Positions 1 through 50,456 of a DNA stretch of 50,456 nt are shown here, piece by piece. Origin of the DNA: a virus. Position 1 is the stretch's first letter. Every line of letters begins with the position of its first letter. Location of the stretch: IMG/VR virus record IMGVR_UViG_3300027985_000306, positions 1 to 50,456 of that record; one strand, written 5' to 3'. Under the pieces are notes generated by a model, which worked only from the letters and a program-made list of their open reading frames with translations, did no database searches and was not told the origin of the DNA. The position numbers and the translations under genes were made by a program.

Positions 1-548
1 CGATCGTAGCTATCAGCATAGACATGCAGACTAATGCTATCTATATCAGAGACATCGTAGCCCGGAAGATGCATCCACATGAGCTATACGCTGAGATATG
101 TGAGATGATAGTTCGCAACCGAGCCTTTGTACTGGGCGTAGAGGTTACGTCCTTACACGAGTTCATCGTTCACCCTCTTAAGAATGAGCTTCTACGGAAT
201 GGGCTTAACGTTGAGTTTATTGACCTACACGCCCGAGGAGGGGATAACGAGCGTGGCAAGATTCAGCGAATCAAACAGCTCAGCCACTACTATCGGGGTG
301 GTCTCATCTTCCATAATCCAGCAGTTTGCCCAGTCTTGGAAGGACAACTCATGTCATTTCCAAGATCAAAACGTTGGGATGTTATGGACGCCGTTGGATA
401 CTTTCCTGAGATGCTTGAGCGAGGAGAACGCTATATGCTCCCTGCACTGACCGCTGGAGAGTCTCGGGAGAGCGTGGAGAAGGAATACGAAGAACTCGAC
501 AAGGACGGTTACTACTCAGAAGCACTTGACTCATTCCACGTGATCTAA
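1..548 (+). CDS. terL: Terminase large subunit, C-terminal nuclease part (5' truncated by window edge)
   Basis: The frame is open from base 3 and reads IVAISIDMQTNAIYIRDI before the first ATG at 24, so the ATG at 24 is internal and the gene enters from outside the window. The fragment resembles the RNase H-like nuclease domain of large terminases: a strand followed by 'GVEVTSLHEF', then a late 'WDVMDAVGYFP' segment like the third catalytic Asp region (D-x-x-D-A..Y). The first catalytic Asp (usually DPA) is not present and should lie in missing sequence. The stop TAA overlaps the portal ATG (TAATG). An ATPase-only terminase fragment at 49546-50456 is almost certainly the other part of the same gene. 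The domain identity is established knowledge; the joining is inference. Confidence 0.88.
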   Translation, partial: IVAISIDMQTNAIYIRDIVARKMHPHELYAEICEMIVRNRAFVLGVEVTSLHEFIVHPLKNELLRNGLNVEFIDLHARGGDNERGKIQRIKQLSHYYRGGLIFHNPAVCPVLEGQLMSFPRSKRWDVMDAVGYFPEMLERGERYMLPALTAGESRESVEKEYEELDKDGYYSEALDSFHVI

Positions 549-17635: not shown

Positions 17636-18163
17636 TCAACCCTCGGACATAGGAGGACCAGGACGGAGAGCTTCCTCTTCCTTCTCACGGTCTCGGTTCA
17701 GTGCGTGAAAGGTGTTCCAGCCTTCAGGATACCGAGCCTCCAGCTTCCTGGAATTAGCTTCCTCAGCCGCCGAGACATCAAGACCCATCCCCTGCATGGC
17801 GCATTCAGCGAACCAAAGCACATCTCCAATCTCTTCGATTACAGAGCTGTTCAGCTGAGACTCTCCATAAGCGAAGGGATCTTCGAGATACTCCCGAAGA
17901 ATCTCCGCCAGTTCTCCAGCCTCGTCCATGATACCTAGCATACCATGCACGGTATCGCGTACTGGCCAGATACCTTGTCTTTGAACTCCCTGTGCTGGAC
18001 GTCCTGGGATGTCGTAGAACAACCGCTTCTTGATCTCCTTGATCTTCAGCGCTGCTATCTGCAACTCATATAGTGCAGAGTAGATTTCGTTCTTGGGAAT
18101 GGCTAGGTAGTTGAACTCTGTACTCTTGGTTCGAGATACAGTGTCACTGACTTGGTGTTTCAT
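17636..18163 (-). CDS. MazG-like nucleotide pyrophosphohydrolase
   Basis: This 175-residue protein has the all-alpha NTP-PPase signature: 'GIMDEAGELAEILREYLED' (an E-x-x-E-type metal site) and 'VIEEIGDVLWFAECAMQG' (E-E-x-G-D), followed by 'SRKLEARYPEG', a typical end of MazG-type domains. These enzymes hydrolyse (d)NTPs to NMP and pyrophosphate. In phages they are thought to sanitise nucleotide pools or alter (p)ppGpp-linked stress signalling. The gene is coupled to the DUF3987 ATPase by ATGA within the replication operon, which supports a nucleotide-pool role. Confidence 0.85.
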   Translation of the reverse strand: MKHQVSDTVSRTKSTEFNYLAIPKNEIYSALYELQIAALKIKEIKKRLFYDIPGRPAQGVQRQGIWPVRDTVHGMLGIMDEAGELAEILREYLEDPFAYGESQLNSSVIEEIGDVLWFAECAMQGMGLDVSAAEEANSRKLEARYPEGWNTFHALNRDREKEEEALRPGPPMSEG

Positions 18164-19383
18164 TGTAGTTTCTTCAATAAAGGGTTATTAGGAATGACTT
18201 CGACGACTGTTGTTCTACCAGTGACTAACCTCCTAGCAAACTGAAGTTGCACCATCGAATCAACAGCAGACTCGAGAGCCTTGACTGTTCCGAGATCACC
18301 GTAAAAGGCTCTAAAGATTTCATCGTATGTAGCTCTCATGTTTGGCCGAAGTACTAGCCAAGCACATATCTCGTATACAACAGGAGCTATCTGTGAGCTG
18401 CCTCGACCCATAAACGTACGAGGCATTTTAACCTCGGTTCGTTCCAGAAGGTCTATTGCTCTAAGCAATATCTCCTTTGAAATCTTCAGAGTACCATCGT
18501 CGGTTCTACAATCTTCGCTGACTGACAGGATCATACACAACTTCAAGATATGAGTCGCTCGTCGGCTGTTATATCCCGCGAAGTTGGGATCGCTGAACGG
18601 AGGAAACTTATCTTGATTCGTGTACCACTTCACCCACTCGTCTACGAACTCCTCTGTCACTAAGAACATCCCGTTCGTCGTGTAGATGTCCTCCAGATCT
18701 GCTAGTAGATCCTTCTTCAATTGCTCATCAGTGACACTTAGGAATGGGGCAGGCACTAACTTTCCCTTATCTTCCTCAAAGACGAAGATGATTCGGCTAG
18801 CGAGCCCTCCTCCGATAGCGTCTTGGGGTAGAGCATTCTGTATCAAGTGTGGTGTTGTGGCTCCGATAAGATTCACCCACACGCCTACTATCTCATCCGT
18901 TCCCATGTTCTTGGTTCGATAAGTCCAGTTGTCTCGACAGTCGAACCAATCTGTTAGGTCTGCGATAAGCTGCTTATTGTCATAGCCGAGAAACACTGTT
19001 AGTTCCTGGCTATATATCGTAAGCGATGCGTGAGTTATAATCTTGCCGTCACTGCGTTGTAGGTACTCCGTGCTGTTTTTCAGTTCTCGTATAAGCGCCT
19101 CTCTTGTTATTGCCTCGGCTGCAAGTTTGATGCCGAGTTCCCTCAGGAAGCCCGCTCCAGTACCCATAGCAGTACCTTTGCGACACTTGCCTGAGGGACC
19201 TACTAGCACAATGTACATGTTAGGATAGAACACGCCAGCGGTGCCCCACCTAAGATAGCACTTTCGTTGCAGCGCAGCGGCGATTAGAGCTACAGCTACC
19301 CACTCACGATATAAGAGAGGAGGTTCACTGTGGTCTGTGTACTTAAGGTAGCTTGTGATCCAATCATCGACGCGTCTACTCAT
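18160..19383 (-). CDS. DUF3987-type P-loop ATPase (replicative helicase-like)
   Basis: This 407-residue protein has a Walker A loop GPSGKCRKGTA at about residues 62-72 after 'FYPNMYIVLV', and a 'LTIYSQELTVFLG' segment where DUF3987 proteins carry their second acidic motif. The N-terminal 'DWITSYLKYTDHSEPPLLYR' is also typical. DUF3987 proteins are RecA/AAA-like ATPases often joined to primase domains, and they are proposed helicases in phages lacking DnaB. No primase domain is attached here and none is seen elsewhere, so priming may rely on the host or on an unrecognised protein. The C-terminus has a winged-helix-like region. ATGA overlaps occur at both ends. Confidence 0.75.
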   Translation of the reverse strand: MSRRVDDWITSYLKYTDHSEPPLLYREWVAVALIAAALQRKCYLRWGTAGVFYPNMYIVLVGPSGKCRKGTAMGTGAGFLRELGIKLAAEAITREALIRELKNSTEYLQRSDGKIITHASLTIYSQELTVFLGYDNKQLIADLTDWFDCRDNWTYRTKNMGTDEIVGVWVNLIGATTPHLIQNALPQDAIGGGLASRIIFVFEEDKGKLVPAPFLSVTDEQLKKDLLADLEDIYTTNGMFLVTEEFVDEWVKWYTNQDKFPPFSDPNFAGYNSRRATHILKLCMILSVSEDCRTDDGTLKISKEILLRAIDLLERTEVKMPRTFMGRGSSQIAPVVYEICAWLVLRPNMRATYDEIFRAFYGDLGTVKALESAVDSMVQLQFARRLVTGRTTVVEVIPNNPLLKKLQ

Positions 19384-20736: not shown

Positions 20737-23211
20737 TCAGTCTCCTGTTGTGAGTTGGTGATATGCCGACTCTAGCATCTGTGCTACAGCTTGTCGTCGG
20801 CCATGAGTGATGGTATGTTTGAACTCCACGCCGTCTTTCAGATTCTTAGCATGTATGCTGAAGTCTACTGGAATCACGAAGCGTCTCCCTTTCCACTCCA
20901 GCGGAGTTTCTAAGCTAGACTTTATCAGGTCAAGCAGGAATGCTTGATCTAACCAGGGCACGCTTAGTGGAATCTGAAAGGCTATAGAGTCGTGGACTTG
21001 AGCGAGAAGTTCTACAGACTTCATCGCAGGGTCGTTATACACATAGGCTAATCCTCGTTCGTTGATGATGTCTGCGACAGTTGATTGAGGAATGAAGGCG
21101 TAGGCCTCTTTGAAGAGAGTATCACCCCACCTGTCAGTAAAGGTGTACTTTCTACCAAAGAGATTCGTGACCACCATACCTTGTCTAAGTTCCTCTTGGA
21201 CGGCTCGATGGTACTTAGCCACCCCAGGGTATGCTCGGTGGTACTGGTCATGAATCCACTTGGCGTCGCGTTCGCTAATTTCGAGGTGGAGCGCAAAGGA
21301 TTTGTAACCGAGTCCATAGTTCAATCCGTGGTTTGCACGTTTGCCCCAATAGCGATGAGTGAATCGTCCTCCACCAAGGTCGCTCTTCACGTCGTTGTTG
21401 TTCATGTCGATAATCTCCTCGACGGGGATACCGAAGATGAGACTAGCCGTCTTACTGTGGATGTCAACCCCGTTCTCGAAAGCATCAATCATCGACACGT
21501 CAGGACCAAGATAGGCAACGACTCTGTTCTCCGCTTGGCTTAGGTCCAGGTTATACGCAACATAACCTTCGTCTGGTAGCATGAACTTCTTCATTATCGG
21601 AGGCTGATTCTGAATATTAGCTCCAGTCCCGAAGATAGTTTTGCTACTAGACAGTCGACCCGTTCTCGCTCCAACAGGGTTGATGCTACTTCTAAGCCTT
21701 CCGTCGTCATCCAACTTCATGGAGAAGTAAGTACCCTCCAGTTTAGCAAGGGTTCGATGTTCAAGAACAAGCTGCGCTACCTTATCTCCCTTTCCCGATA
21801 GCCTCTTAAGCGCTTTCTCGTTCGTTGTTACCTTACCTTGATCTTTGTATGGAGGATACTTCTTCTTTGTGTAGAAGTAATCCTTCAACTGAGTTGGGCT
21901 TCTAGGATTCAATTCGTATCCGGCAGTGATGTTTATCTGCTTTTCCAATTCCGCTAGATGCAACTTTGCAGCAGAAGCCTGCTTCTTCAAGCCGTCAACA
22001 TCCATACGAATGCCCCGCTCAGTCATAAAGAGAAGCGGAGCAAGTAGCGAAGCCTGACGCTTGTAGGTCTTGTAGTTACCTTGTGTCTTTAACTCAGCTA
22101 CTTGTTTGGGGAAGGCTTCCATTAGAACAATGCTATCAAGTGCATTGTATCGCCAGAAGCGCATTTGCCAATCTGCACCTACTGACGTGAAGCCTTTGAT
22201 CTGGTCCTTAATTACGCTCTTACCCTCGTCCTTGTAATACGGGATGTCAGTATACAGACTGGTGATGAACGCAAGACCTTTTGAGAAGTCTGGATAGAGA
22301 ATAGCTTGCGCTATCATTGTATCCTGTACGTTGTTGGTTAGCACTGCATATTCACGCAATAGAAACGAAGTATCGAACATCGCATTTTGAGCGATCTTCT
22401 CTATCCTCTCATTGCCGAGTATATCTGCTATCCGTTTCCAAACCTCTCGCTCTTGTTCGATTGTGAAGTACTCCCTCCCGTCGTTAATGAAAGGGATAGA
22501 TATAACATCCTTGTCACTGTAAGCGAAGCTAATGCAAGTCACAAAACCTTTGCTAACTTCGATGTCGAAAGCTACACGTTGCGCGTTCCAGCAAGCGCTT
22601 AGGTAGTCAATACACTCCTCGAATGTTGGCTTCAGTATATACCTTCGATCATCGACAGGGAGATCGGGTGACATTGACTGTTGCTTGGCTCTACGAAGAT
22701 CAAATGCGATCAAGTGCCGCCAACTGTACTGGCGCAGCGCAGCCGCCGGATGTATGATCGGTATGACCTTTACTCCAGGCACAAGACTCGATTCCATCAC
22801 AGAACCACGCCACTTTGTTATTCCTTGCTCTCCGGTCAAGGCGTACAAAGCAGCATTGCCTACGGCGATGATTACATTAGGTCGCACTGTCTCTATCTCT
22901 GTCTTCAGCAAGTCGATGTATTGCCGAGCAGCTTTTGAGATCACGACTTTATTGCCTAGCCGTATAAAGACGTTAAGGTTGTTATTAGGTGGACGTTCTT
23001 TGATTACGTTGGTAATGTAGCAGACCTGTCGTAGGATCCCTGCTTTTACCAACAATCTGTCGAGTAGCTTCCCACTAACTCCGACAAAGGGCTGCTTCAT
23101 GCGAGCCTCAGTTTCGCCGGGTGCTTCACCGACGATCATGATCTCAGCATTTTCAGGGCCTATCGCTGGAACTATGTTGTGCGGAAGATTCTCCGTTGCT
23201 ATTGCGCTCAT
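20737..23211 (-). CDS. Fusion of family-4-like uracil-DNA glycosylase, 3'-5' exonuclease and DNA polymerase A
   Basis: This 824-residue protein has three parts. Residues 1-175: UDG with GEAPG (28-32), 'PFVGVSGKLLDRLL' and HPA (154-156). The iron-sulfur cysteines usual in family 4 are missing; for example 'NVIKERPP' has Glu where Cys is usual. Residues 212-370: DEDD-type exonuclease with D216/E218, D280 and Y355-x3-D359. Residues 390-824: family A polymerase with motif A 'LDLSQAENRVVAYL' (D557), motif B R620-x3-K624-x3-H628-x3-Y632, and motif C 'QVHDSIAFQIP' (D741). All catalytic aspartates are present, so it should be an active proofreading replicase. The residue equivalent to E. coli F762 is His628. 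It starts at 23211 with no Shine-Dalgarno sequence. Confidence 0.92.
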   Translation of the reverse strand: MSAIATENLPHNIVPAIGPENAEIMIVGEAPGETEARMKQPFVGVSGKLLDRLLVKAGILRQVCYITNVIKERPPNNNLNVFIRLGNKVVISKAARQYIDLLKTEIETVRPNVIIAVGNAALYALTGEQGITKWRGSVMESSLVPGVKVIPIIHPAAALRQYSWRHLIAFDLRRAKQQSMSPDLPVDDRRYILKPTFEECIDYLSACWNAQRVAFDIEVSKGFVTCISFAYSDKDVISIPFINDGREYFTIEQEREVWKRIADILGNERIEKIAQNAMFDTSFLLREYAVLTNNVQDTMIAQAILYPDFSKGLAFITSLYTDIPYYKDEGKSVIKDQIKGFTSVGADWQMRFWRYNALDSIVLMEAFPKQVAELKTQGNYKTYKRQASLLAPLLFMTERGIRMDVDGLKKQASAAKLHLAELEKQINITAGYELNPRSPTQLKDYFYTKKKYPPYKDQGKVTTNEKALKRLSGKGDKVAQLVLEHRTLAKLEGTYFSMKLDDDGRLRSSINPVGARTGRLSSSKTIFGTGANIQNQPPIMKKFMLPDEGYVAYNLDLSQAENRVVAYLGPDVSMIDAFENGVDIHSKTASLIFGIPVEEIIDMNNNDVKSDLGGGRFTHRYWGKRANHGLNYGLGYKSFALHLEISERDAKWIHDQYHRAYPGVAKYHRAVQEELRQGMVVTNLFGRKYTFTDRWGDTLFKEAYAFIPQSTVADIINERGLAYVYNDPAMKSVELLAQVHDSIAFQIPLSVPWLDQAFLLDLIKSSLETPLEWKGRRFVIPVDFSIHAKNLKDGVEFKHTITHGRRQAVAQMLESAYHQLTTGD

Positions 23212-23770: not shown

Positions 23771-25156
23771 TTAATATGACTTCCACGAACCATAAGATTC
23801 GCTAGTCACGCGGTGAATAAAGGCGTTGCGATACTTCTCTTCGAGATCCCACCCGAAAGCAGGAAGACCCAACTTGGCTGCCGCCAGCATTGTGTTACCA
23901 CTACCAGCGAACGGAACCATGACTGTCGAAGACTCTCTCGCAAACGTGTTGATGATGTCCTGCATCATCTCAATAGGCCGTTCGGTCGGATGTATCTTCT
24001 TCGTGCTGTGCACTGGAGAATAATCAAAGACATTGATCCGTCCTTGCTTATTCATTCCAGGAGAACCTTTGCGAGCATAGAAGAAGAACTCTGCCGCATT
24101 GCCGAGATACTTATCCGGATGATGAGTCTGACCTGTTCTCTTAGTCCACACTCCTGGAATACGTTTCATCTCAAAGCCTGCTTCGACGATCCAGTCTGCT
24201 AGAGGCTGGAACCAGGGCTCAGGCCCGAACCAGCATACTAGCCATGAGTGCGAAGACATCACGCGATAGCATTCCGCTAAGGTTTTTCGCATGAAGTCTT
24301 CATAGAATGTAGGTTTGATCTCATTATACTTCGACGTATCCGCTTTCTTCTTCTGGCCATGCAGATCAATCGCGTAAGGAGGATCAAGTTCGACGAAGTT
24401 GACAATCCCGTCAGTCACCTTTCCAACACCATCGAAGAAGTTACCTAGCTGGTACGAAGCTATGAGCGCATCGCCCTTCTTCAGCTTAGGTTGGACATCA
24501 CTCTTCATCTTCTGGCGGCGAGCAACTTCCTTCAACGCCTCACGCTTGATTTCCTCTTCTCGCAATCTAGCCGCATCGGCCTTGGTCTTTACCTTTGAAA
24601 GCAGATCAGGATTCTCTTGTAGGAATTGATGCAGCTGCACATCTCGGCTCAGTGTCGCAGCGCTGACTCCAAGCTGATCTGCTACATCACGCAAGGAAAC
24701 TCCCGACGCGTCTGGAGCCGTGCTGATCTTCTCTCCATACTGCTCTTGCATCAGCCGAAGGATCTCTGCTCGTGCAGCTAACTCTTCTGGCGGAGACAGC
24801 CTCTTTCTGTTCAAGTTCTCATGAAGCTCCAGCGTTCGGATCTCCATAGCGGTGAGCGTATGCTCAAAGATCAGCGCGGGTATTTGCTTCAGCTGAATAG
24901 ACAGCGCAGCCATTGTTCGCCGTCCACCAGCTATAAGCAAATACGGCTGCCTAGGATCTTTAGGCTCCATCGACTTCAGTTCAGCTTCGTCAAGAGCTGA
25001 CTTCAGAACTATAGCAATGGGAGAGATCATCCCATTCACTTTCATATCATCAGCCAGCTCTTCGATGCCTACATAGTCTCCCCGCATTCGCTTGCCTAGA
25101 TCAATCTTCAGCGGGTCTATGAAGTCCATCTTTTTATTAAGGACAGTTTCTCTCAT
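23771..25156 (-). CDS. ParB-like domain fused to an adenine/N4-cytosine DNA methyltransferase
   Basis: This 461-residue protein has, in order: a ParB/Srx-type domain (about 10-120) with 'LLIAGGRRTMAAL' and the ParB box 'HENLNRKRLSPPEE'; a helix-turn-helix (155-172, 'DVADQLGVSAATLSRDV'); a charged linker (185-228); and a methyltransferase (229-461) with catalytic DPPY at 258-261 and AdoMet-binding FAGSGNT at 416-422. Catalytic motif before AdoMet motif is the beta-class order. It probably methylates phage DNA at sites recognised via the N-terminal DNA-binding part, protecting it from restriction or marking it for replication or packaging. No cognate restriction gene is nearby. It is coupled (ATGA) to the upstream gene. 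Confidence 0.88.
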   Translation of the reverse strand: MRETVLNKKMDFIDPLKIDLGKRMRGDYVGIEELADDMKVNGMISPIAIVLKSALDEAELKSMEPKDPRQPYLLIAGGRRTMAALSIQLKQIPALIFEHTLTAMEIRTLELHENLNRKRLSPPEELAARAEILRLMQEQYGEKISTAPDASGVSLRDVADQLGVSAATLSRDVQLHQFLQENPDLLSKVKTKADAARLREEEIKREALKEVARRQKMKSDVQPKLKKGDALIASYQLGNFFDGVGKVTDGIVNFVELDPPYAIDLHGQKKKADTSKYNEIKPTFYEDFMRKTLAECYRVMSSHSWLVCWFGPEPWFQPLADWIVEAGFEMKRIPGVWTKRTGQTHHPDKYLGNAAEFFFYARKGSPGMNKQGRINVFDYSPVHSTKKIHPTERPIEMMQDIINTFARESSTVMVPFAGSGNTMLAAAKLGLPAFGWDLEEKYRNAFIHRVTSESYGSWKSY

Positions 25157-26597: not shown

Positions 26598-26972
26598 TTA
26601 GGTGGAAAAGGACGGACAAAAATCGGCTCGATGTACAGACGGCCAGGGCTTCGCAGGCTGAGGTAGAGCGCCGTGACACTCTCCCCAATCTTCGTGCTCT
26701 ATATACTCCTTGCTGATATGATCGTAGGCCAACTCAGTGTGCTTAAACCAGCAGCAGTTTGCACAACGGCCAGGAACAGTTGCAGCTTTCTTTTCTTTGC
26801 TCACGAAATAGAACCTCCACCAGTCGTAGAAGATTTCACGTTCTCCAGGTAGCGGCTTGTAGCTTGGAATCCCGTAGGGATCGCCACTGAGAGACGTAAA
26901 CCATCTGATGATCGGGGCTGTGTCACTACGATACTCTCGTCGTCGATGTTCAAACAGGATCATCCACCTCAT
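26598..26972 (-). CDS. Small cysteine-rich (zinc-binding?) protein
   Basis: This 124-residue protein starts at the ATG at 26972, which has a GGAGG site 9 bases upstream. The C-terminal half holds 'GRCANCCWFKHTE', 'WGECHGALP' and 'HRADFCPSF': spaced Cys/His residues that could bind one zinc. The N-terminal half has 'SLSGDPYGIPSYKPLPGERE' followed by an aromatic helix ('FYDWWRFYFVSKEKK'). It overlaps the start of the Sak4-like gene's 3' end by 23 bases. The role is unknown, possibly a DNA- or protein-binding accessory to recombination. Confidence 0.7.
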   Translation of the reverse strand: MRWMILFEHRRREYRSDTAPIIRWFTSLSGDPYGIPSYKPLPGEREIFYDWWRFYFVSKEKKAATVPGRCANCCWFKHTELAYDHISKEYIEHEDWGECHGALPQPAKPWPSVHRADFCPSFST

Positions 26973-27816
26973 CCTGCTTATCCTCCCAGGACATGCCTGC
27001 TTTCTTGAGAATTAAGCTAAGATTCTGAGGTTCTCGCTCTTGAAGAACATCAGCCCTTCGCAGACGGGATCTGGCAATGTAGATCCCAGAAGGAGTAAGA
27101 CGATACTCGTACTTTCGTGTAGTACCGGCAGGCTTACCTTCTGCGAAATACACTTCGTCGAACAAGCTAGGCATCTGCTGAGCGAACTTCCGTCCGTCCA
27201 TAGCTACCATAGCGAACGTGCGGCCAGTCTTCTCGTCCTTGTCGATCACCATGTGCGCTATAACAACGGTGTGACAAGGGAGCGTAGCGATGTCGCTGAT
27301 ATGTTGAGCGAGGACTTTCTGGTGAACGAGGTAATCTGACATCTCCGGGATGATGTCGGGGTCTTTGCCTAGATCCGCGCTGAGCTTGGGCGGCTTGCGC
27401 TTACGAGCCTTGAGGATCTCATGCATCAGAGCCGACGTGAACCGAGTCCAACTGTCGATCACGTACGTACCGACGTGTTCAAACATGTTGATCTGCTTGA
27501 GCCGATAGAACTCGCGTTCCCATGCACGATAAGCCTTAGGCTCAGTCGCACTGTCCTCCTCGAAGCGGTTGTCAACAATGACTCTTCCGCTGTCGATTTG
27601 GCTTTGCTCAATGCAGTTAGATCCGCCAGGATCAAAGCTATGGATCAAGACTGGACCAGGGGCGAACTGCATCCCGTACGTCTTACCGCTTCCGTAGTCT
27701 CCGATTACGAGAAAGTTTGCGTACTTCCTGGTCTTCGTGTACATCTGACGTATCTTCTGGAACTCCGTCTGTACGTCCAACCTTATCTGCTTCCGAACTT
27801 GCTCTTTCGTCTGCAT
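26950..27816 (-). CDS. Sak4-like RecA-fold recombination ATPase
   Basis: This 288-residue protein has Walker A GDYGSGKT (39-46) and a Walker B-like 'VGTYVIDSWT' (Asp121). These are followed by 'HQKVLAQHISDIATLPCHTV' and a sensor-like 'VIAHMVIDKDEKTGR', the arrangement of phage AAA_24/Sak4 proteins. These assist single-strand annealing together with an SSB. The SSB-like gene (25977) and nuclease gene (28175) in the same cluster support this. The start has a weak GGAG site and lies 134 bases inside the upstream gene; an internal Met at residue 25 is an alternative start. A RecA-like or DNA-packaging ATPase role is less likely. Confidence 0.78.
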   Translation of the reverse strand: MQTKEQVRKQIRLDVQTEFQKIRQMYTKTRKYANFLVIGDYGSGKTYGMQFAPGPVLIHSFDPGGSNCIEQSQIDSGRVIVDNRFEEDSATEPKAYRAWEREFYRLKQINMFEHVGTYVIDSWTRFTSALMHEILKARKRKPPKLSADLGKDPDIIPEMSDYLVHQKVLAQHISDIATLPCHTVVIAHMVIDKDEKTGRTFAMVAMDGRKFAQQMPSLFDEVYFAEGKPAGTTRKYEYRLTPSGIYIARSRLRRADVLQEREPQNLSLILKKAGMSWEDKQDEVDDPV

Positions 27817-28174: not shown

Positions 28175-29224
28175 CTAGCGCTTCTGCACCTCTTGGATCT
28201 CGCTTTCGCCTGCCTTTACAATGTACTTCGCATCATCCTGTTCTCGTCTTGGATCCCAGAACGCTTGCTCGAAGCCACTTGGTGGACTGTCTGCGTGTTC
28301 CAGCGGGTTCGGCCAGGTAGCACAGAACTGCGCGAAGGGACAGCCATACTTAGAACAACTCGTCCCGTTGCAAGGAAAGGCAGGAAGAATGTCGTCGTCT
28401 GGCGTACTGTTGACAAGGTTTTCCCAGTGCCAACTCATGTAGTCGAGGATATGATTGACTCGCCACAGTCCTTCGACCATCATGCGTTCGCTCTTGGCGA
28501 CTGGCACTCGAATGAACTCGTTGTTGTCTGGCTTAGCTTTCGTTGGCGCACGAAGGATCGCACCGTTGATAATCACGCCAGACACATCATCGTCAGGGAA
28601 GATCGCGTTGAGAGCGTGAGTGTACAGCCACGGCTGCGTTATCAAGTCCCATTGATCTGCCCAACGTTGAGACCATCGGCCTGTTGTCTTGTGTTCCATG
28701 CTCGCTATACGCCCGTTGCGGCGGACGATTGAATCGAGCTTGAAGTGCAGTACTCGATCCTCCTGAACAGGGACACTACCTGCGACCTCGGTGTACATTG
28801 TTCTCATCTCTCGCTTGTCCCGCTCCCACAGTTGCGCGTACTTGACGAGAGCACGCAGGGCGTTCTCGGGATTCTTCGCACTGTGTGGATCTGGACCCAA
28901 GGTCTGAGGGAACTGAGACTCGTAGTAGTCATTGAACAACTGCCATGCTTCGAGCACAGCCTTGTCGCTATAACCGTCGTCGGTGTTCAGAGATCGGAGA
29001 AGATGCTCCATAGCAAGATGCCATCCGCTACCGAACTCTAGATGAATGTTAGGGTCGATACCTCTCCAGCCGAGAACATACTGGAAGAAGTACTTACGTG
29101 GACTATCCAAGAACGTCTGTATCTTCGACGCATCGTGGATGTCCATAGTCGGGTGATAGACCAGTCCGGTTTCCGCTATCTCTTCACCAGCGGTCCAGAT
29201 CCGATCTCCTAGTGATTGGAGCAT
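28175..29224 (-). CDS. Cas4/RecB-like PD-(D/E)XK nuclease with C-terminal cysteine cluster
   Basis: This 349-residue protein shows the RecB-nuclease motifs: 'FGSGWHLAMEHLL' (His69), 'LHFKLDSIVRRNGRIASMEHKTTG' split over D164 and E177-x-K179, and 'QPWLY' (Q197..Y201). Near the C-terminus, four cysteines (285, 290, 295, 301) in 'PCNGTSCSKYGCPFAQFC' fit an iron-sulfur cluster as in Cas4 and AddB nucleases. It probably resects DNA ends for the neighbouring Sak4/SSB pair. The start used is the first ATG, downstream of the tRNA gene; no Shine-Dalgarno site is visible. Confidence 0.85.
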   Translation of the reverse strand: MLQSLGDRIWTAGEEIAETGLVYHPTMDIHDASKIQTFLDSPRKYFFQYVLGWRGIDPNIHLEFGSGWHLAMEHLLRSLNTDDGYSDKAVLEAWQLFNDYYESQFPQTLGPDPHSAKNPENALRALVKYAQLWERDKREMRTMYTEVAGSVPVQEDRVLHFKLDSIVRRNGRIASMEHKTTGRWSQRWADQWDLITQPWLYTHALNAIFPDDDVSGVIINGAILRAPTKAKPDNNEFIRVPVAKSERMMVEGLWRVNHILDYMSWHWENLVNSTPDDDILPAFPCNGTSCSKYGCPFAQFCATWPNPLEHADSPPSGFEQAFWDPRREQDDAKYIVKAGESEIQEVQKR

Positions 29225-31027: not shown

Positions 31028-31222
31028 CTAGAGGTATATAGACAGTACCCGTAGCATTGCTATTAGGTAGAACAACAGATACCCAGCCCCGATAACAACG
31101 AGGCCGAGCACTGTCACGAACACGAACCATACGAGAACGAATTCTCTACTGATCCGCTTTTCATTGTGGAGATCGAAGATAGTCCAGGCCAGGTAGTCCA
31201 CAAGGCTTTCAGTAATCTTCAT
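31028..31222 (-). CDS. 64-residue membrane protein
   Basis: The likely start is the ATG at 31222 ('MKITESLVDYLAWTIFDLHN'), overlapping the end of the 80-residue gene by 14 bases; a longer frame from 31393 is a shadow of that gene. Residues 32-57 form a strong hydrophobic helix ('EFVLVWFVFVTVLGLVVIGA' onward), so it is a membrane protein with a cytoplasmic charged head. It is the last gene of the vWA/J-domain operon. Confidence 0.7.
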   Translation of the reverse strand: MKITESLVDYLAWTIFDLHNEKRISREFVLVWFVFVTVLGLVVIGAGYLLFYLIAMLRVLSIYL

Positions 31223-31451
31223 TGTAGTAGTCGCTAGCCCACCAAGCCAGCGCCTCTTCCTCCAACGTCTCCAACTCTTCATCAGAGGGCTCGAACTCGA
31301 CTCCATCTTCCGTGAACGCCTGGAAGATGGAGGCCGTGGGCGGTGTTGCCGGTTCCCAGAACGTCTGGGGAGATCCGTGGTCGATGTCTGCAATTACAGA
31401 GACGTCTTCTTGATCTCCGAGCCTGCAGAAGAACTTAACGCGAGTTGTCAT
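31209..31451 (-). CDS. Small acidic hypothetical protein
   Basis: This 80-residue, strongly acidic protein ('MTTRVKFFCRLGDQEDVSVI...', ending 'EEEALAWWASDYYNEDY') starts at the ATG that overlaps the stop of the 28-residue membrane peptide (ATGA). The acidic C-terminus with Trp/Tyr suggests an interaction tail. It belongs to the vWA/J-domain operon. No family is recognised. Confidence 0.75.
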   Translation of the reverse strand: MTTRVKFFCRLGDQEDVSVIADIDHGSPQTFWEPATPPTASIFQAFTEDGVEFEPSDEELETLEEEALAWWASDYYNEDY

Positions 31452-31534
31452 TTTCCTATGAGGTCTGCGAGTTTAACAAAGAGCAGCACTATCAACAGTG
31501 CCACCATGAGAGCGATGGGATCGTCTAGTTTCAT
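31448..31534 (-). CDS. 28-residue membrane microprotein
   Basis: A reading frame of 28 codons encodes MKLDDPIALMVALLIVLLFV followed by KLADLIGK. Both ends overlap neighbours as ATGA: its ATG overlaps the vWA stop, and its TGA overlaps the ATG of the 80-residue gene. Coupling on both sides plus a clean single transmembrane helix is strong evidence that this tiny gene is real. It may tether or regulate the vWA protein. Confidence 0.7.
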   Translation of the reverse strand: MKLDDPIALMVALLIVLLFVKLADLIGK

Positions 31535-32133
31535 CTGGACTCCAGCAATCCTTTGATGCTGGTTCCGAGGAGCTTAGGTTCGACTCGGCCCATCGCAGTT
31601 CCTGTTGCCAGCTTGTTCATGAAGGTCAGACCGCTATCACCGTCTCGTCCGATGAAGATGGTATCGAGCGCTGATTTGAATTTGTCTCGCCATACAATGC
31701 AGTCATCGGGCCGGTCGGGTTGGCCGTCTGAGACAACGATGAACTTCATACCCATGTCGTCGAACGTGTGCGCCAACTCCAGCGCGGCGCGGAGATTCGT
31801 CGTACCTTCGGGTCTTGGCGGCAGTCCACCATATTGAACTCCAGCACCGGACGCGAACGTGATGAGGAGAACCTTACCTTGGTACTGCTGCTGAATCATC
31901 TCAAGCGCCTTTACCGCTTCACTATAGCGAGTGCCGCTCGTTTCTTCTGCGCGGCCATACGACCACGAACCATCCAGACGTGTCAGCATTGAACTGGAAC
32001 AGTCGAGTAGAACAACCACGTCGGCGTTCGCCACGATCTCTTCCGGCTTCTTGTTACGTCGGGCTGCTAGATCAAAGATCGAGCCCTCCGCAATGCTGGT
32101 TTCTCGCTTCTGGATTGCAGTTGAGTTGCTCAT
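31531..32133 (-). CDS. von Willebrand factor A (vWA) domain protein
   Basis: This 200-residue protein starts at the ATG at 32133, which overlaps the upstream stop (ATGA); the longer frame to 32235 is a shadow of the upstream gene. The metal-ion-dependent adhesion site is complete: D44-C-S46-S-S48, T111/T112 in 'EGTTNLRAAL', and D136 in 'IVVSDGQPD'. A vWA domain binds partner proteins through Mg2+, often beside AAA ATPases or in stress (tellurite-type) complexes. No signal peptide is present, so it is probably cytoplasmic. It lies in a tightly coupled operon with a J-domain protein and membrane microproteins. Confidence 0.88.
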   Translation of the reverse strand: MSNSTAIQKRETSIAEGSIFDLAARRNKKPEEIVANADVVVLLDCSSSMLTRLDGSWSYGRAEETSGTRYSEAVKALEMIQQQYQGKVLLITFASGAGVQYGGLPPRPEGTTNLRAALELAHTFDDMGMKFIVVSDGQPDRPDDCIVWRDKFKSALDTIFIGRDGDSGLTFMNKLATGTAMGRVEPKLLGTSIKGLLESR

Positions 32134-32501
32134 TTGCTCTTCTGGTCTTCGAGTGATTGAGTGATGATGTTGATGAGTTCGTCGACTTTGTGCATCAAGC
32201 ATCTCGCGGTGTCCCAGGAGTACCCGTCGTAACACGGATAGACTTCCCAGTACGGGGCGTTAACGGCTCCTAAGAGATCATAGCCGTCAAGATAGACACT
32301 GACACCTCGATCGCCTACGTTTACAAGAAACCTAACAATCGCTCCGCCAAACCCTGGAATGATCTTAACTTCCCAGTCAGACGGAAACTTGATCGCGGGG
32401 ATCTCTTTTCTCCAACGATCCGCTTGGAACACACGGTCGTGATCTCCAGCGCTGCGGTAGAGATCCATCCGCTCCACGCTGAGGCGAGTTCCCTTAGGCA
32501 T
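32130..32501 (-). CDS. Hypothetical protein in the vWA/J-domain operon
   Basis: This 123-residue protein ('MPKGTRLSVERMDLYRSAGD...') has a beta-rich centre ('KFPSDWEVKIIPGFGGAIVR', 'RGVSVYLDGYDLLGAVNAPY') and a helical end. It overlaps the J-domain gene's stop by 8 bases and the vWA start by ATGA. Cysteines at 'CYDGYSWDTARC' are not in a recognisable metal motif. No family is recognised; it is a candidate third component of the operon. Confidence 0.75.
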   Translation of the reverse strand: MPKGTRLSVERMDLYRSAGDHDRVFQADRWRKEIPAIKFPSDWEVKIIPGFGGAIVRFLVNVGDRGVSVYLDGYDLLGAVNAPYWEVYPCYDGYSWDTARCLMHKVDELINIITQSLEDQKSK

Positions 32502-33045
32502 ATCTATACCTCGTGTTTTGTTGTGAACGGGCCATGAGAACGAGCGCCGCGTCGTAACGCTTGCGTCTGTTCATGTCCGTGAGAACTTCGTACGCTTCTC
32601 GTACGATGTGAAAGTGGTCGGTGTCTCCTCCCTTGTCGGGATGATACTGCTTGGCGAGAGCGAAGAACGCCTTCCTTATTTCTTTTTCATCTGCATCACT
32701 CTCGACACCCAAGACGGTGTAGTAGGTCGAACGGTCTATGAAATTGCCGTTCATGATGTCTTCGAGCGACACGTCGTTAGTGCGAATCTCCGGCAGCTTA
32801 CCTTCGTAATACTTCTTTGTCAGATCACAGACAGCAAGGATTGTAGCCGGATTCGTCGTGAGATGCCAGACCTTCTTGTCACCATCCCATCGTCTATCTT
32901 TGAATGGGATCTTGACTTTGAAGTCACCTAGCATGTCCGGGTTGTAAGGCATGGCGAGAATCATATCGACCTTTGATATGACTAAACTCGGCAGCTTTAC
33001 CACGGGTGGTTGGTAGCCCTTACGGTAGGCTCTGCGTGCGGCCAT
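32494..33045 (-). CDS. J-domain (DnaJ-like) protein with N-terminal HARP-like region
   Basis: This 183-residue protein has a typical J domain at its C-terminal end (about 107-166): 'YYTVLGVESDADEKEIRKAF', the HPD tripeptide at 135-137 and 'YEVLTDMNRRKRYD'. J domains stimulate Hsp70/DnaK ATPase. Residues 38-80 ('KIPFKDRRWDGDKKVWHLTT' and flanks) resemble the HARP-like segment found at the N-terminus of SNF2-type helicases. J domains are usually N-terminal, so this order is unusual. It probably recruits host DnaK to phage DNA or a phage complex. The C-terminal end overlaps the next gene by 8 bases. Confidence 0.85.
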   Translation of the reverse strand: MAARRAYRKGYQPPVVKLPSLVISKVDMILAMPYNPDMLGDFKVKIPFKDRRWDGDKKVWHLTTNPATILAVCDLTKKYYEGKLPEIRTNDVSLEDIMNGNFIDRSTYYTVLGVESDADEKEIRKAFFALAKQYHPDKGGDTDHFHIVREAYEVLTDMNRRKRYDAALVLMARSQQNTRYRYA

Positions 33046-33218
33046 AGTACCTCGTTGATTAAGCGGTTAACGGTTTCTACAGAGATGCCTAACTGCACTG
33101 CACAGTAGGCCAGGTCGTGTTCCCATAGCAGAAGGCCGTAGCAAACCATCCCGGCCTGCCACCGCCAACTACTATCCTTGAAACACCTCGTTAGGTAGAG
33201 CAGCTCAAGCGCGCTCAC
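32997..33218 (-). CDS. Small HTH-like protein, GTG start
   Basis: This 73-residue protein starts with GTG at 33218, overlapping the upstream stop (GTGA). It overlaps the J-domain start by 49 bases. The segment 'LAYCAVQLGISVETVNRLIN' looks like a helix-turn-helix. The high Trp/Leu content (for example 'SSWRWQAGMVCYGLLLWEHD') is unusual. No family is recognised. Confidence 0.6.
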   Translation of the reverse strand: MSALELLYLTRCFKDSSWRWQAGMVCYGLLLWEHDLAYCAVQLGISVETVNRLINEVLWPHAEPTVRATNHPW

Positions 33219-33715
33219 TTCAGCTTGTTGTAAAGAACGTCGAGCAACTTCTTACGCTGCTCATCATTCATACTAGCAAACTGGTCAAGAAGTGATTGCT
33301 TGGCTTTCTCTTTTTGTTCGTGCTCCTTAGCTACTTTCTTCTTCCGCCGGTCTACCACAGTCCGCACTTCTACAAAGCGGAATGTGATGAGCGGACCTTG
33401 CTTCCGTAATGGTATGAGACGACCATTTACGGAGTAAGTCTTCCAAGTTCCGGGGATGCTCTTACGCACTCTGTAGTCCGCGAACACTTCTTCGACAGTC
33501 TTAGCATCCTTGCGGTGGAGCGTGACATCCCAGAACTCAAGACTTCCTTCTTTACCGTGCTCCCACTTGATTGGGAGACTAGGCATCCCTGGTTGTTTGA
33601 CTCGCCTTTGAGTCAGGACTCCGACTAGCTTCGAGACACAAGATCTCAAATGCTCGTCGTCGCCAGCCAAAGCTAACTCCAGATGCCGAATGATGTCGGA
33701 CTGTTCTAGCTTCAT
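33215..33715 (-). CDS. Hypothetical protein, first gene of the vWA/J-domain transcript
   Basis: This 166-residue basic protein starts at the ATG at 33715 ('MKLEQSDIIRHLELALAGDD'), just below the promoter at 33755-33783. The middle is beta-rich ('EFWDVTLHRKDAKTVEEVFA', 'RVRKSIPGTWKTYSVNGRLI'), followed by a Lys-rich helix ('KKKVAKEHEQKEKAKQSLLD') and an 'FASMNDEQRKKLLDVLYNKL' end. The charge suggests nucleic-acid binding. No family is recognised. Confidence 0.7.
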   Translation of the reverse strand: MKLEQSDIIRHLELALAGDDEHLRSCVSKLVGVLTQRRVKQPGMPSLPIKWEHGKEGSLEFWDVTLHRKDAKTVEEVFADYRVRKSIPGTWKTYSVNGRLIPLRKQGPLITFRFVEVRTVVDRRKKKVAKEHEQKEKAKQSLLDQFASMNDEQRKKLLDVLYNKLK

Positions 33716-49545: not shown

Positions 49546-50456
49546 ATGAGCGATCCTAACAACATACGGGACATTCTGGCAGCCTGTTATCAGGACTCGC
49601 AGACTATGGCTAAGGTATTCTTGCCTGAGCGGTTCTGGAGACCGTTCGATCCGCAGGTGCATGGCCAGATGTTTGACCTGATCGACAACAGCGATAATCC
49701 ACTAAAGGCCATTGCAGCGCCTCGTGGTATGGGTAAGACTTCTATCATCAACCTATTGCTGCCTATGAAAGCTATCTTGTTTCAGGAAAGCCGCTACATC
49801 GTTCCAGTTAGCGCAACGACCGACCTTGCAATGCAGCAAGCTGAGAACTTGAAACAAGAACTAATCATCAATCCTTTGGTTGAGAAGCTCTATGGTCCCT
49901 TGGCATCTCAAAACTTCAGCAAGCGTCAGTGGGTCGTCAACATAGGCGACCAGGATATATGCGTTATGCCTCGAGGCGCTGGACAGCAGATTCGTGGTTT
50001 GCTCTACCGTAACTACAGACCCGGCCTTATCCTCGTGGATGACTTGGAAGATCCAGAGGCGATGGACTCCGAGGAACAGCGAGCTAAGAAGAAGGAGTGG
50101 TTCTACGCTGACCTACTAAACTGTGTTGACCGTGGAAAAGGTAGCCAATGGCAGATCATTGTACTGGGTACGATTCTGCACCAAGACTCTTTGCTCGAAG
50201 GTCTGCTTGATAATCCTTCTTGGGACTCTATTCGCCTCGAGTTGTGCGATGACAATCTAAACAGTCTTGCGCCGAACTTTATGTCCACCAAGGACGTTCG
50301 GACGCTATATCAGCAATTTAAGGAAGCTGGAAAGGAGGATACATTCTATCGAGAATATAGAAACAACCCTGTTCCTATCTCTTCAGATGCTACCTTCCCT
50401 TCCGCACTGTTTAAGAACTACGATCCTGTCAAAGAGAATCTCGACGCCAATCCGCA
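49546..50456 (+). CDS. terL: Terminase large subunit, ATPase part (3' truncated by window edge)
   Basis: 303 codons from ATG 49546 with the terminase ATPase motifs: adenine-binding 'RFWRPFDPQVHGQM', Walker A APRGMGKTS (58-66), Walker B LILVDDLED (161-169), and coupling motif LGTILH at about 208. The fragment continues to 'NPVPISSDATFPSALFKNYD', the usual end of the ATPase domain, then runs off the window before the nuclease domain. With the nuclease fragment at 1-548 it accounts for one normal terL, with a short central stretch missing. It translocates DNA into the capsid through the portal. No clear Shine-Dalgarno site is present. Confidence 0.92.
   Translation, partial: MSDPNNIRDILAACYQDSQTMAKVFLPERFWRPFDPQVHGQMFDLIDNSDNPLKAIAAPRGMGKTSIINLLLPMKAILFQESRYIVPVSATTDLAMQQAENLKQELIINPLVEKLYGPLASQNFSKRQWVVNIGDQDICVMPRGAGQQIRGLLYRNYRPGLILVDDLEDPEAMDSEEQRAKKKEWFYADLLNCVDRGKGSQWQIIVLGTILHQDSLLEGLLDNPSWDSIRLELCDDNLNSLAPNFMSTKDVRTLYQQFKEAGKEDTFYREYRNNPVPISSDATFPSALFKNYDPVKENLDANP

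Follow-up and report, generated by a model that had tools for sequence, protein, structure and literature searches.

Eight overlapping genes lie on the minus strand between positions 33715 and 31028 of IMGVR_UViG_3300027985_000306, as read from the open reading frames of the window, by which we mean the whole 50,456-nucleotide stretch of DNA analysed. g1 (33215..33715) opens the run and encodes a basic protein of 166 aa with 35 K/R residues; g2 (32997..33218) has a GTG start, overlaps g1 by 4 nt and encodes 73 aa. Neither product has a confident family, and a Crp-like HTH match of g2 in Pfam was not significant (E 0.18). The third gene (32494..33045), which overlaps g2 by 49 nt, encodes a 183-aa protein with a HARP-like region and a J domain. 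g4 (32130..32501) encodes 123 aa without a Pfam match and overlaps both the J gene (8 nt) and the vWA gene. The latter (31531..32133) starts with the ATG at 32133, in a 4-nt ATGA overlap, and encodes 200 aa; a longer frame to 32235 is unlikely, since it runs within g4. g6 (31448..31534) encodes a hydrophobic peptide of 28 aa and shares an ATGA overlap with the vWA gene; g7 (31209..31451) encodes an acidic protein of 80 aa (20 acidic, 3 basic residues); and g8 (31028..31222) encodes 64 aa with one hydrophobic segment. All eight are on the minus strand. The gene run had been described in an original prediction, whose coordinates, overlaps, HPD motif and vWA metal site are all confirmed here.

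The J protein and the vWA protein

The window J protein carries a DnaJ domain at residues 107–165 (Pfam, 6.9e-21), with HPD at 135–137, and from its sequence the presence of a J domain is certain. The HPD motif is found in 39 of 40 members of the J family, the remaining one having HSD, and the J fold was seen in the predicted model of one relative's J protein. In Pfam the window protein shows the DnaJ domain alone, without the C-terminal domain and zinc finger of class A and B DnaJ proteins, so that it is class C-like.

The HARP-like region covers about residues 20–80. A profile built from the N-termini of 39 relatives, with the window left out, matches the window J protein (7.6e-13) and no other frame of the window. 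The Pfam HARP family (PF07443) is matched by 13 of the 40 family members, at best with 1.5e-5, and not by the window protein itself. These matches bear out the label "HARP-like" that the protein had been given from its sequence. In profile–profile comparison, the window J protein is related to family A5 with an E of 1.8e-41. It is without the central and C-terminal beta domains found in most relatives; g4 was considered as the source of the missing part and ruled out by profile comparison (hhalign). Fold searches with the full J-protein model return essentially J domains alone, and the central and C-terminal domains draw no named fold.

The vWA protein was only weakly recognized by a single-sequence Pfam search (0.0017). 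Single-sequence searches with it found no relative in viral_contigs and no match in the PDB, PHROGs holds no match for the family, and a DNA-level search of phages with the window sequence also gave none. The family was reached only through an alignment with one named relative, the vWA protein of ctLpZ231 (31% identity, E 2e-20). The MIDAS site of the window protein consists of D44-x-S46-x-S48, T112 and D136, and these five residues are invariant in 58 of 58 vWA-family proteins. The AlphaFold2 model (pLDDT 92.0, pTM 0.88) matches vWA folds in the PDB, and the family alignment together with this predicted structure makes the vWA identity certain.

Conservation of the pair in relatives

The vWA-family sample comprised one named phage, 72 IMG/VR contigs, nine bacterial genomes and two plasmids. 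Loci were picked by the vWA gene alone, and synteny was counted over the 69 with at least 2.5 kb of upstream sequence. A HARP-like/J gene lies on the same strand and up to 3 kb upstream of the vWA gene in 57 of these 69 loci; in seven further loci it is up to 6 kb away or overlaps the vWA gene, and in one it is on the opposite strand. No fusion of the two genes was found among the relatives. The two plasmid members have the vWA gene and no J gene, which indicates that the vWA protein can have other partners. The original prediction had staked its reading on conserved synteny and on intact HPD and MIDAS motifs in homologues, and the counts given above show all of these kept. Sequence comparison supports J and vWA as a real, conserved set that would recruit a chaperone.

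The named phage, Bacteriophage sp. ctLpZ231 (Manatee Spring; MW202444.1), also has the vWA and HARP-like/J genes as neighbours, annotated by domain only. It differs in that all four parts of the architecture are present in its J protein and that it holds no relative of the other genes of 33715–31028. Over 60 loci, in fact, no relative was found of g1, g2, g4, g6, g7 or g8. g6 and g8 encode strongly hydrophobic products (maximum Kyte–Doolittle values of 2.68 and 2.79), which is consistent with single transmembrane helices predicted from sequence, and these two genes overlap vWA and g7, as a membrane-linked complex for superinfection exclusion would have it. That was one of the original prediction's own readings, and we regard it as most improbable, since small hydrophobic frames follow vWA in 4/82 cases among relatives, against 19/217 for control stretches, and so are not commoner there, and a hydropathy scan showed a strongly hydrophobic segment in neither the J nor the vWA protein. 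Of the proposed membrane-linked chaperone-recruiting complex, the J/vWA set is conserved and the membrane link finds no support. We take the membrane peptides and the other small genes of the run as local passengers or accessories, outside the conserved core.

The carriers of the pair are dozens of unrelated bacterial viruses, whose hosts, where known, are mostly poorly studied Chloroflexota; the distribution is sporadic, with 3 of 301 Chloroflexota genomes positive. One carrier in culture is Ornatilinea apprima P3M-1, where the genes lie in a prophage-like region. Both genes are absent from the 47-kb record of a relative identified by its polymerase (L031), and the nearest named relative, a Desulfofustis phage, gave no vWA match and no J protein among the tblastn matches listed. 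The module is therefore probably not ancestral to the lineage of the window's phage.

Recombination and replication neighbourhood

In the window, the pair lies just upstream of a block of DNA-metabolism genes, all on the minus strand. A PD-(D/E)XK exonuclease (28175..29224; Pfam 3.6e-14, phrog_1218 5e-16) and a Sak4-like/AAA_24 ssDNA-annealing ATPase (26950..27816; phrog_124 6.4e-25, Pfam AAA_24 2.5e-10) are the downstream functional neighbours; a DNA polymerase A with 3'-5' exonuclease and an N-terminal UDG-like domain (20737..23211) and a DUF3987 primase/helicase (18160..19383; phrog_14296 2.1e-54) form the replication core. The relatives have recombination genes (ERCC4 nuclease, RecT, PD-(D/E)XK exonuclease) on one side of the pair and helicase/primase on the other. 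Over 85 loci, the neighbours include ERCC4 nuclease in 38, RecT in 33, PD-(D/E)XK exonuclease in 32, VapE helicase in 34 and Prim-Pol/primase in 70. Recombination and replication genes are thus the conserved neighbours, which points to DNA metabolism and lends no support to the framing as superinfection exclusion or host takeover with which the run had first been presented. For the function of the J–vWA pair, operon position is circumstantial.

The slot upstream of the block varies in the window's lineage, the nearest relative having a DNA ligase there in place of J–vWA, as accessory islands do. This variation and the sporadic distribution are what a role in counter-defence or host takeover could explain: the J protein would divert host DnaK or serve as a decoy for DnaJ-sensing immunity, the vWA protein would bind a host target, and the recombination operon would be a convenient site of early expression. 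The defence NLR bNACHT25 needs DnaJ, and a counter-defence role has been suggested for phage-encoded DnaJ (PMC12619734, citing Conte et al. 2025). We nevertheless hold such a role to be unlikely, given that steady placement beside recombination and replication genes in unrelated phages and constant vWA and J motifs are unusual for anti-defence genes, that a HARP-like domain would not be expected, and that PADLOC matched neither J nor vWA; g1 showed weak E2 matches alone.

Distance-matrix comparisons gave r = 0.73 for vWA and J (n = 59; reached by 0 of 2000 permutations), as high as the primase–VapE pair (r 0.74). The vWA distances also correlate with those of ERCC4, the uncharacterised d5 and the exonuclease (r 0.57–0.65). 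When d5 or exonuclease distances are controlled for, the vWA–J partial r drops to 0.19–0.20 (29 of 2000 permutations each), so that part of the correlation is co-inheritance of the whole block. VapE and primase usually follow shortly after vWA (median offsets of +1.0 kb and +2.5 kb), and this spacing, like the plasmid members that retain vWA without J, would suit a complex led by the vWA protein, which would scaffold a metal-dependent assembly with the following helicase/primase while J merely folds or loads it, DnaK serving for assembly only. Set against the value for vWA–J, the vWA distances are uncorrelated with primase (r 0.12) and moderately correlated with VapE (0.41), and we think a vWA-led complex quite improbable.

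A possible co-chaperone role in viral DNA metabolism

MIDAS vWA proteins are known from MoxR–vWA chaperone/co-chaperone pairs, including jumbo-phage and archaeal-virus cases, where the vWA protein is thought to capture an extended peptide (PMC7159879, PMC7824862). The present pair likewise couples a MIDAS vWA with a chaperone component, and differs in having an Hsp70 J-domain partner and a recombination-operon location. MoxR-type AAA+ proteins (AAA_3, AAA_5) were found above the cut-off in none of 23 records, in a search that detected its controls, and a MoxR partner for the vWA protein was rejected. Phage Hsp70 was also not found above the cut-off in the 23 records, one sub-threshold match carrying an in-frame stop. 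With neither found, the motor of the chaperone system would have to come from the host. Nor was any Ter gene recognised among the families scanned, such as the TerB/C/D partners that accompany a vWA protein in Ter stress-response systems.

Both protein types have jumbo-phage precedent (PMC7824862), and a terminase lies about 5 kb downstream in 45 of the 85 loci; the pair might then be a virion-assembly chaperone, as proposed for MoxR–vWA and DnaJ of jumbo phages. This is very unlikely in our judgement, because the pair sits inside a DNA-metabolism block, away from structural genes, its distances to the terminase fall within the permutation range (J r 0.05, vWA r 0.14), and no MoxR-type partner was found in the 23 records.

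The place of the pair in the replication/recombination cluster suggests a built-in chaperone step in viral DNA copying or repair. We judge the chances about evenly balanced that J and vWA form a mobile two-protein co-chaperone module for phage DNA recombination and replication. In the mechanism that we infer, the HARP-like domain would bring the J protein to DNA that is branched or single-stranded, or to phage proteins bound to DNA, and the HPD J domain, from established J-domain biochemistry, would recruit and activate host DnaK there. The vWA protein may capture a client or a J-protein peptide through its Mg2+/MIDAS site and so choose the complex acted on. A complex that serves phage recombination or the initiation of replication, either annealing protein/exonuclease or a helicase and its loader, would be the likely client. 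It would have to be dismantled or passed on, in loose analogy to lambda, where DnaJ/DnaK remove P from DnaB at ori-lambda. HARP-like domains might also bind protein, not DNA.

In lambda, the O–P–DnaB prepriming complex is remodelled by host DnaJ/DnaK/GrpE (PMC4926192). The likeness is that Hsp70, with a J protein, would act on the replication complex of a phage; lambda uses host DnaJ, whereas here the J protein is encoded by the phage, bears a HARP-like domain and is paired with a vWA protein, and no O/P homologue was identified. A lambda-type release of a loader from the replicative helicase would be suggested by gene position. The HARP domain gives SNF2 proteins annealing-helicase activity (PMC4035279). 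A HARP-like domain is common to the SMARCAL1-type annealing helicases and the J proteins, in which it is fused to a J domain, and no SNF2 ATPase was matched across the 40 J proteins. The RB43 J-domain protein (Perrody et al. 2012, cited in PMC12619734) and other phage DnaJ proteins are likewise expected to recruit host DnaK; the 28 loci found with the window J domain differ in having neither the HARP-like domain nor this vWA. More tentatively, and with less than even probability, the pair may represent a new class of co-chaperone. A vWA protein with a MIDAS site would choose the clients of a HARP-like J protein targeted to DNA, and host Hsp70, not a MoxR-type AAA+, would remodel recombination or replication-fork complexes. 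The literature found on J and vWA in phages deals with jumbo phages and conflict systems and gives no account of the pair, which appears undescribed in the papers searched.

Phage DnaJ genes are widely noted and their role is poorly understood (PMC12619734). Here one J-protein architecture is linked to one partner, the vWA protein, and to one process, recombination/replication, in dozens of divergent phages, which opens the function of J proteins encoded by phages to direct testing. A co-chaperone pair of this kind would carry the lambda DnaJ/DnaK example over to a module that moves between viruses.

The gene run and its two core proteins

The window, a 50,456-base virus record, carries tailed-phage head, packaging and DNA-metabolism genes. 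Eight overlapping genes at 33715-31028 on the minus strand form the run described in the original prediction, and its third and fifth genes encode, as was read there, a J-domain protein with the HPD tripeptide and a vWA protein. The third gene product (33045-32494, minus strand; 183 aa) matches Pfam DnaJ at 6.9e-21 and has HPD at residues 135-137. The fifth (32133-31531, minus strand; 200 aa) gives a weak vWA match on its own (0.0017, single sequence), and its AlphaFold2 model (pLDDT 92.0, pTM 0.88) matches solved vWA domains; together with the family-level evidence, it certainly belongs to vWA, by its family.

The typical J protein of this family has four parts: HARP-like, central beta, J and C-terminal beta domains, as seen in the modelled protein from Ornatilinea (pLDDT 90.6, pTM 0.63), in which the HARP-like part has the topology beta-beta-alpha-beta-beta-alpha. 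Pfam HARP is matched by 13 of 40 family members, at best with 1.5e-5. Of the four, the window protein retains only the HARP-like and J parts; both beta domains are missing. The fourth gene product (123 aa) was ruled out by profile comparison as a substitute for them.

No relative of the six other genes of the run, which include the hydrophobic small proteins of 28 and 64 aa, turned up in 60 loci, and small hydrophobic frames were not enriched after vWA (4 of 82, versus 19 of 217 elsewhere). The membrane link suggested earlier was thus not upheld, and the membrane element is, as far as visible, local to the window phage.

Conservation and co-inheritance of the J-vWA pair

Synteny of the two genes, the check set in the original prediction, is conserved. 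Among loci picked by vWA alone, without regard to J, 69 have at least 2.5 kb upstream, and 57 of these have a same-strand J-domain gene within 3 kb, the match being weak (8e-4) in one, L063 (Oscillochloris). The J gene lies 3.3-5.4 kb upstream in L042, L074, L075, L077, L099 and L100, overlaps the open frame called for vWA in L069, is on the opposite strand in L039, and is absent from four of the 69 loci (the plasmids L059 and L060, and L078 and L101). Whole-record searches found it in L043, L046 and L087, where vWA is at the edge of the locus, and found none in L078, L091, L093 and L101.

The metal site (MIDAS residues D, S, S, T, D) is identical in 58 of 58 vWA proteins, and HPD is kept in 39 of 40 J proteins. 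The sole exception, in L036, reads HSD; an adjoining second J gene, of the phrog_9210 family, has HPD. This second family, with a C-terminal J domain, adjoins the same vWA at L036:7333-7995, L034:4145-4768 and L056:6616-7281. A divergent J-like protein without the usual architecture adjoins vWA at L063:7305-7970. The 28 loci retrieved when only the window J domain served as query (L002-L029) have neither vWA nor the HARP-like N-terminus; vWA is thus associated specifically with the HARP-like/J architecture.

Pairwise distances of vWA and J are correlated (r = 0.73 across 59 dereplicated loci, a value reached in 0 of 2000 permutations), equalling primase-VapE (0.74) and far exceeding vWA-terminase (0.14), vWA-primase (0.12) and J-terminase (0.05), with the proviso that correlations for the primase may be lowered by the mixture of architectures in its cluster. 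Intermediate values (0.52-0.65) were obtained for vWA against the ERCC4-type nuclease, RecT, the exonuclease and d5, an uncharacterised cluster in the recombination block. Controlling for the exonuclease or d5 reduced the vWA-J partial r to 0.19-0.20 (29 of 2000 permutations each), so the signal is partly the shared history of the block.

Genomic neighbourhood and distribution

The usual order in 85 loci is d5 (36 loci), ERCC4-type nuclease (38), RecT-like annealing protein (33) or, in its place, Sak4-like AAA_24 (8), PD-(D/E)XK exonuclease (32), HARP-like/J (69), vWA (85), VapE helicase (34), Prim-Pol/primase (70) and terminase (45). The d5 protein (L033:2927-3673 and 35 more loci), conserved and of 230-250 aa, heads the recombination block; it has no Pfam or PHROG match and, judged by position, is perhaps an ssDNA-binding protein.

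Downstream of the J-vWA pair in the window, and transcribed from that strand too, lie genes for a PD-(D/E)XK exonuclease, a Sak4-like ATPase, a ParB-methylase, a UDG-exonuclease-PolA protein and a DUF3987 primase/helicase. This replication core is collinear with that of Desulfofustis phage LS06-2018-MD01, which has an ATP-dependent DNA ligase in the corresponding upstream place and gave no match in a vWA search; the pair therefore appears to have been acquired as a module, in a slot whose content varies. The module also looks to be common to phages with differing replication cores but with recombination genes nearby.

The ParB-methylase gene (23771-25156, minus strand) fuses a ParB N-terminal domain (Pfam 3e-5) to an N6/N4 DNA methylase (5.6e-21), and is collinear with the 'ParB-like' gene of the Desulfofustis phage. 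The PolA fusion (20737-23211, minus strand) has an N-terminal UDG-like domain (Pfam UDG 2.7e-25, residues 17-163), then a 3'-5' exonuclease. Both ends of the window (3-548 and 49546-50454, plus strand) match a single terminase large subunit gene (L118, 39109-40656), and the record may represent a whole genome, circular or permuted, opened within that gene.

In a collection of 50,697 named phage records, this vWA occurs in ctLpZ231 (MW202444.1) alone (E 2e-20). The J gene of ctLpZ231, with a recognisably HARP-like N-terminus, lies upstream of the vWA frame at a distance of 0.7 kb, and since the window J query matched only 78 of these records, the pairing is far above chance. The vWA family, reached first with a two-protein vWA alignment and then with one of 25 proteins, has no match in PHROG and has relatives in 72 IMG/VR contigs, nine bacterial contigs (Chloroflexota 6, Verrucomicrobia 1, Saccharibacteria 1, Gammaproteobacteria 1) and four plasmid records, two of which were examined. 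Its presence in 3 of 301 genomes drawn from Chloroflexota is as expected for prophages or other mobile elements. The two plasmids, of Pectobacterium (L059, 6971-8552) and Xanthomonas (L060, 6660-8315), carry the vWA relative in small cassettes that share two genes (c43 and c44) and have no J-domain gene, which gives this vWA family another set of partners.

Proposed function

An HPD J domain stimulates DnaK, and a MIDAS uses Mg2+ to bind an acidic side chain. We propose, with about an even chance of being right, that the J-vWA pair would bring the host's DnaK to a complex of phage recombination or replication, the client being chosen by vWA. Across 23 records, no Hsp70 and no MoxR-type AAA+ protein scored above cut-off. 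SNF2 proteins owe annealing-helicase activity to their HARP domains (PMC4035279), and Hsp70 takes lambda P off DnaB (PMC4926192).

The main rival, by reason of the accessory slot and of the intersection of J proteins with immunity (PMC12619734), is that the pair serves in counter-defence, which we consider unlikely. No description of J plus vWA in phages was found in the literature searched, which omits most subscription papers; in jumbo phages each protein type is known separately, vWA there with MoxR (PMC7824862). With DnaK recruitment as the preferred reading, the J-vWA set would be a phage Hsp70 co-chaperone system.
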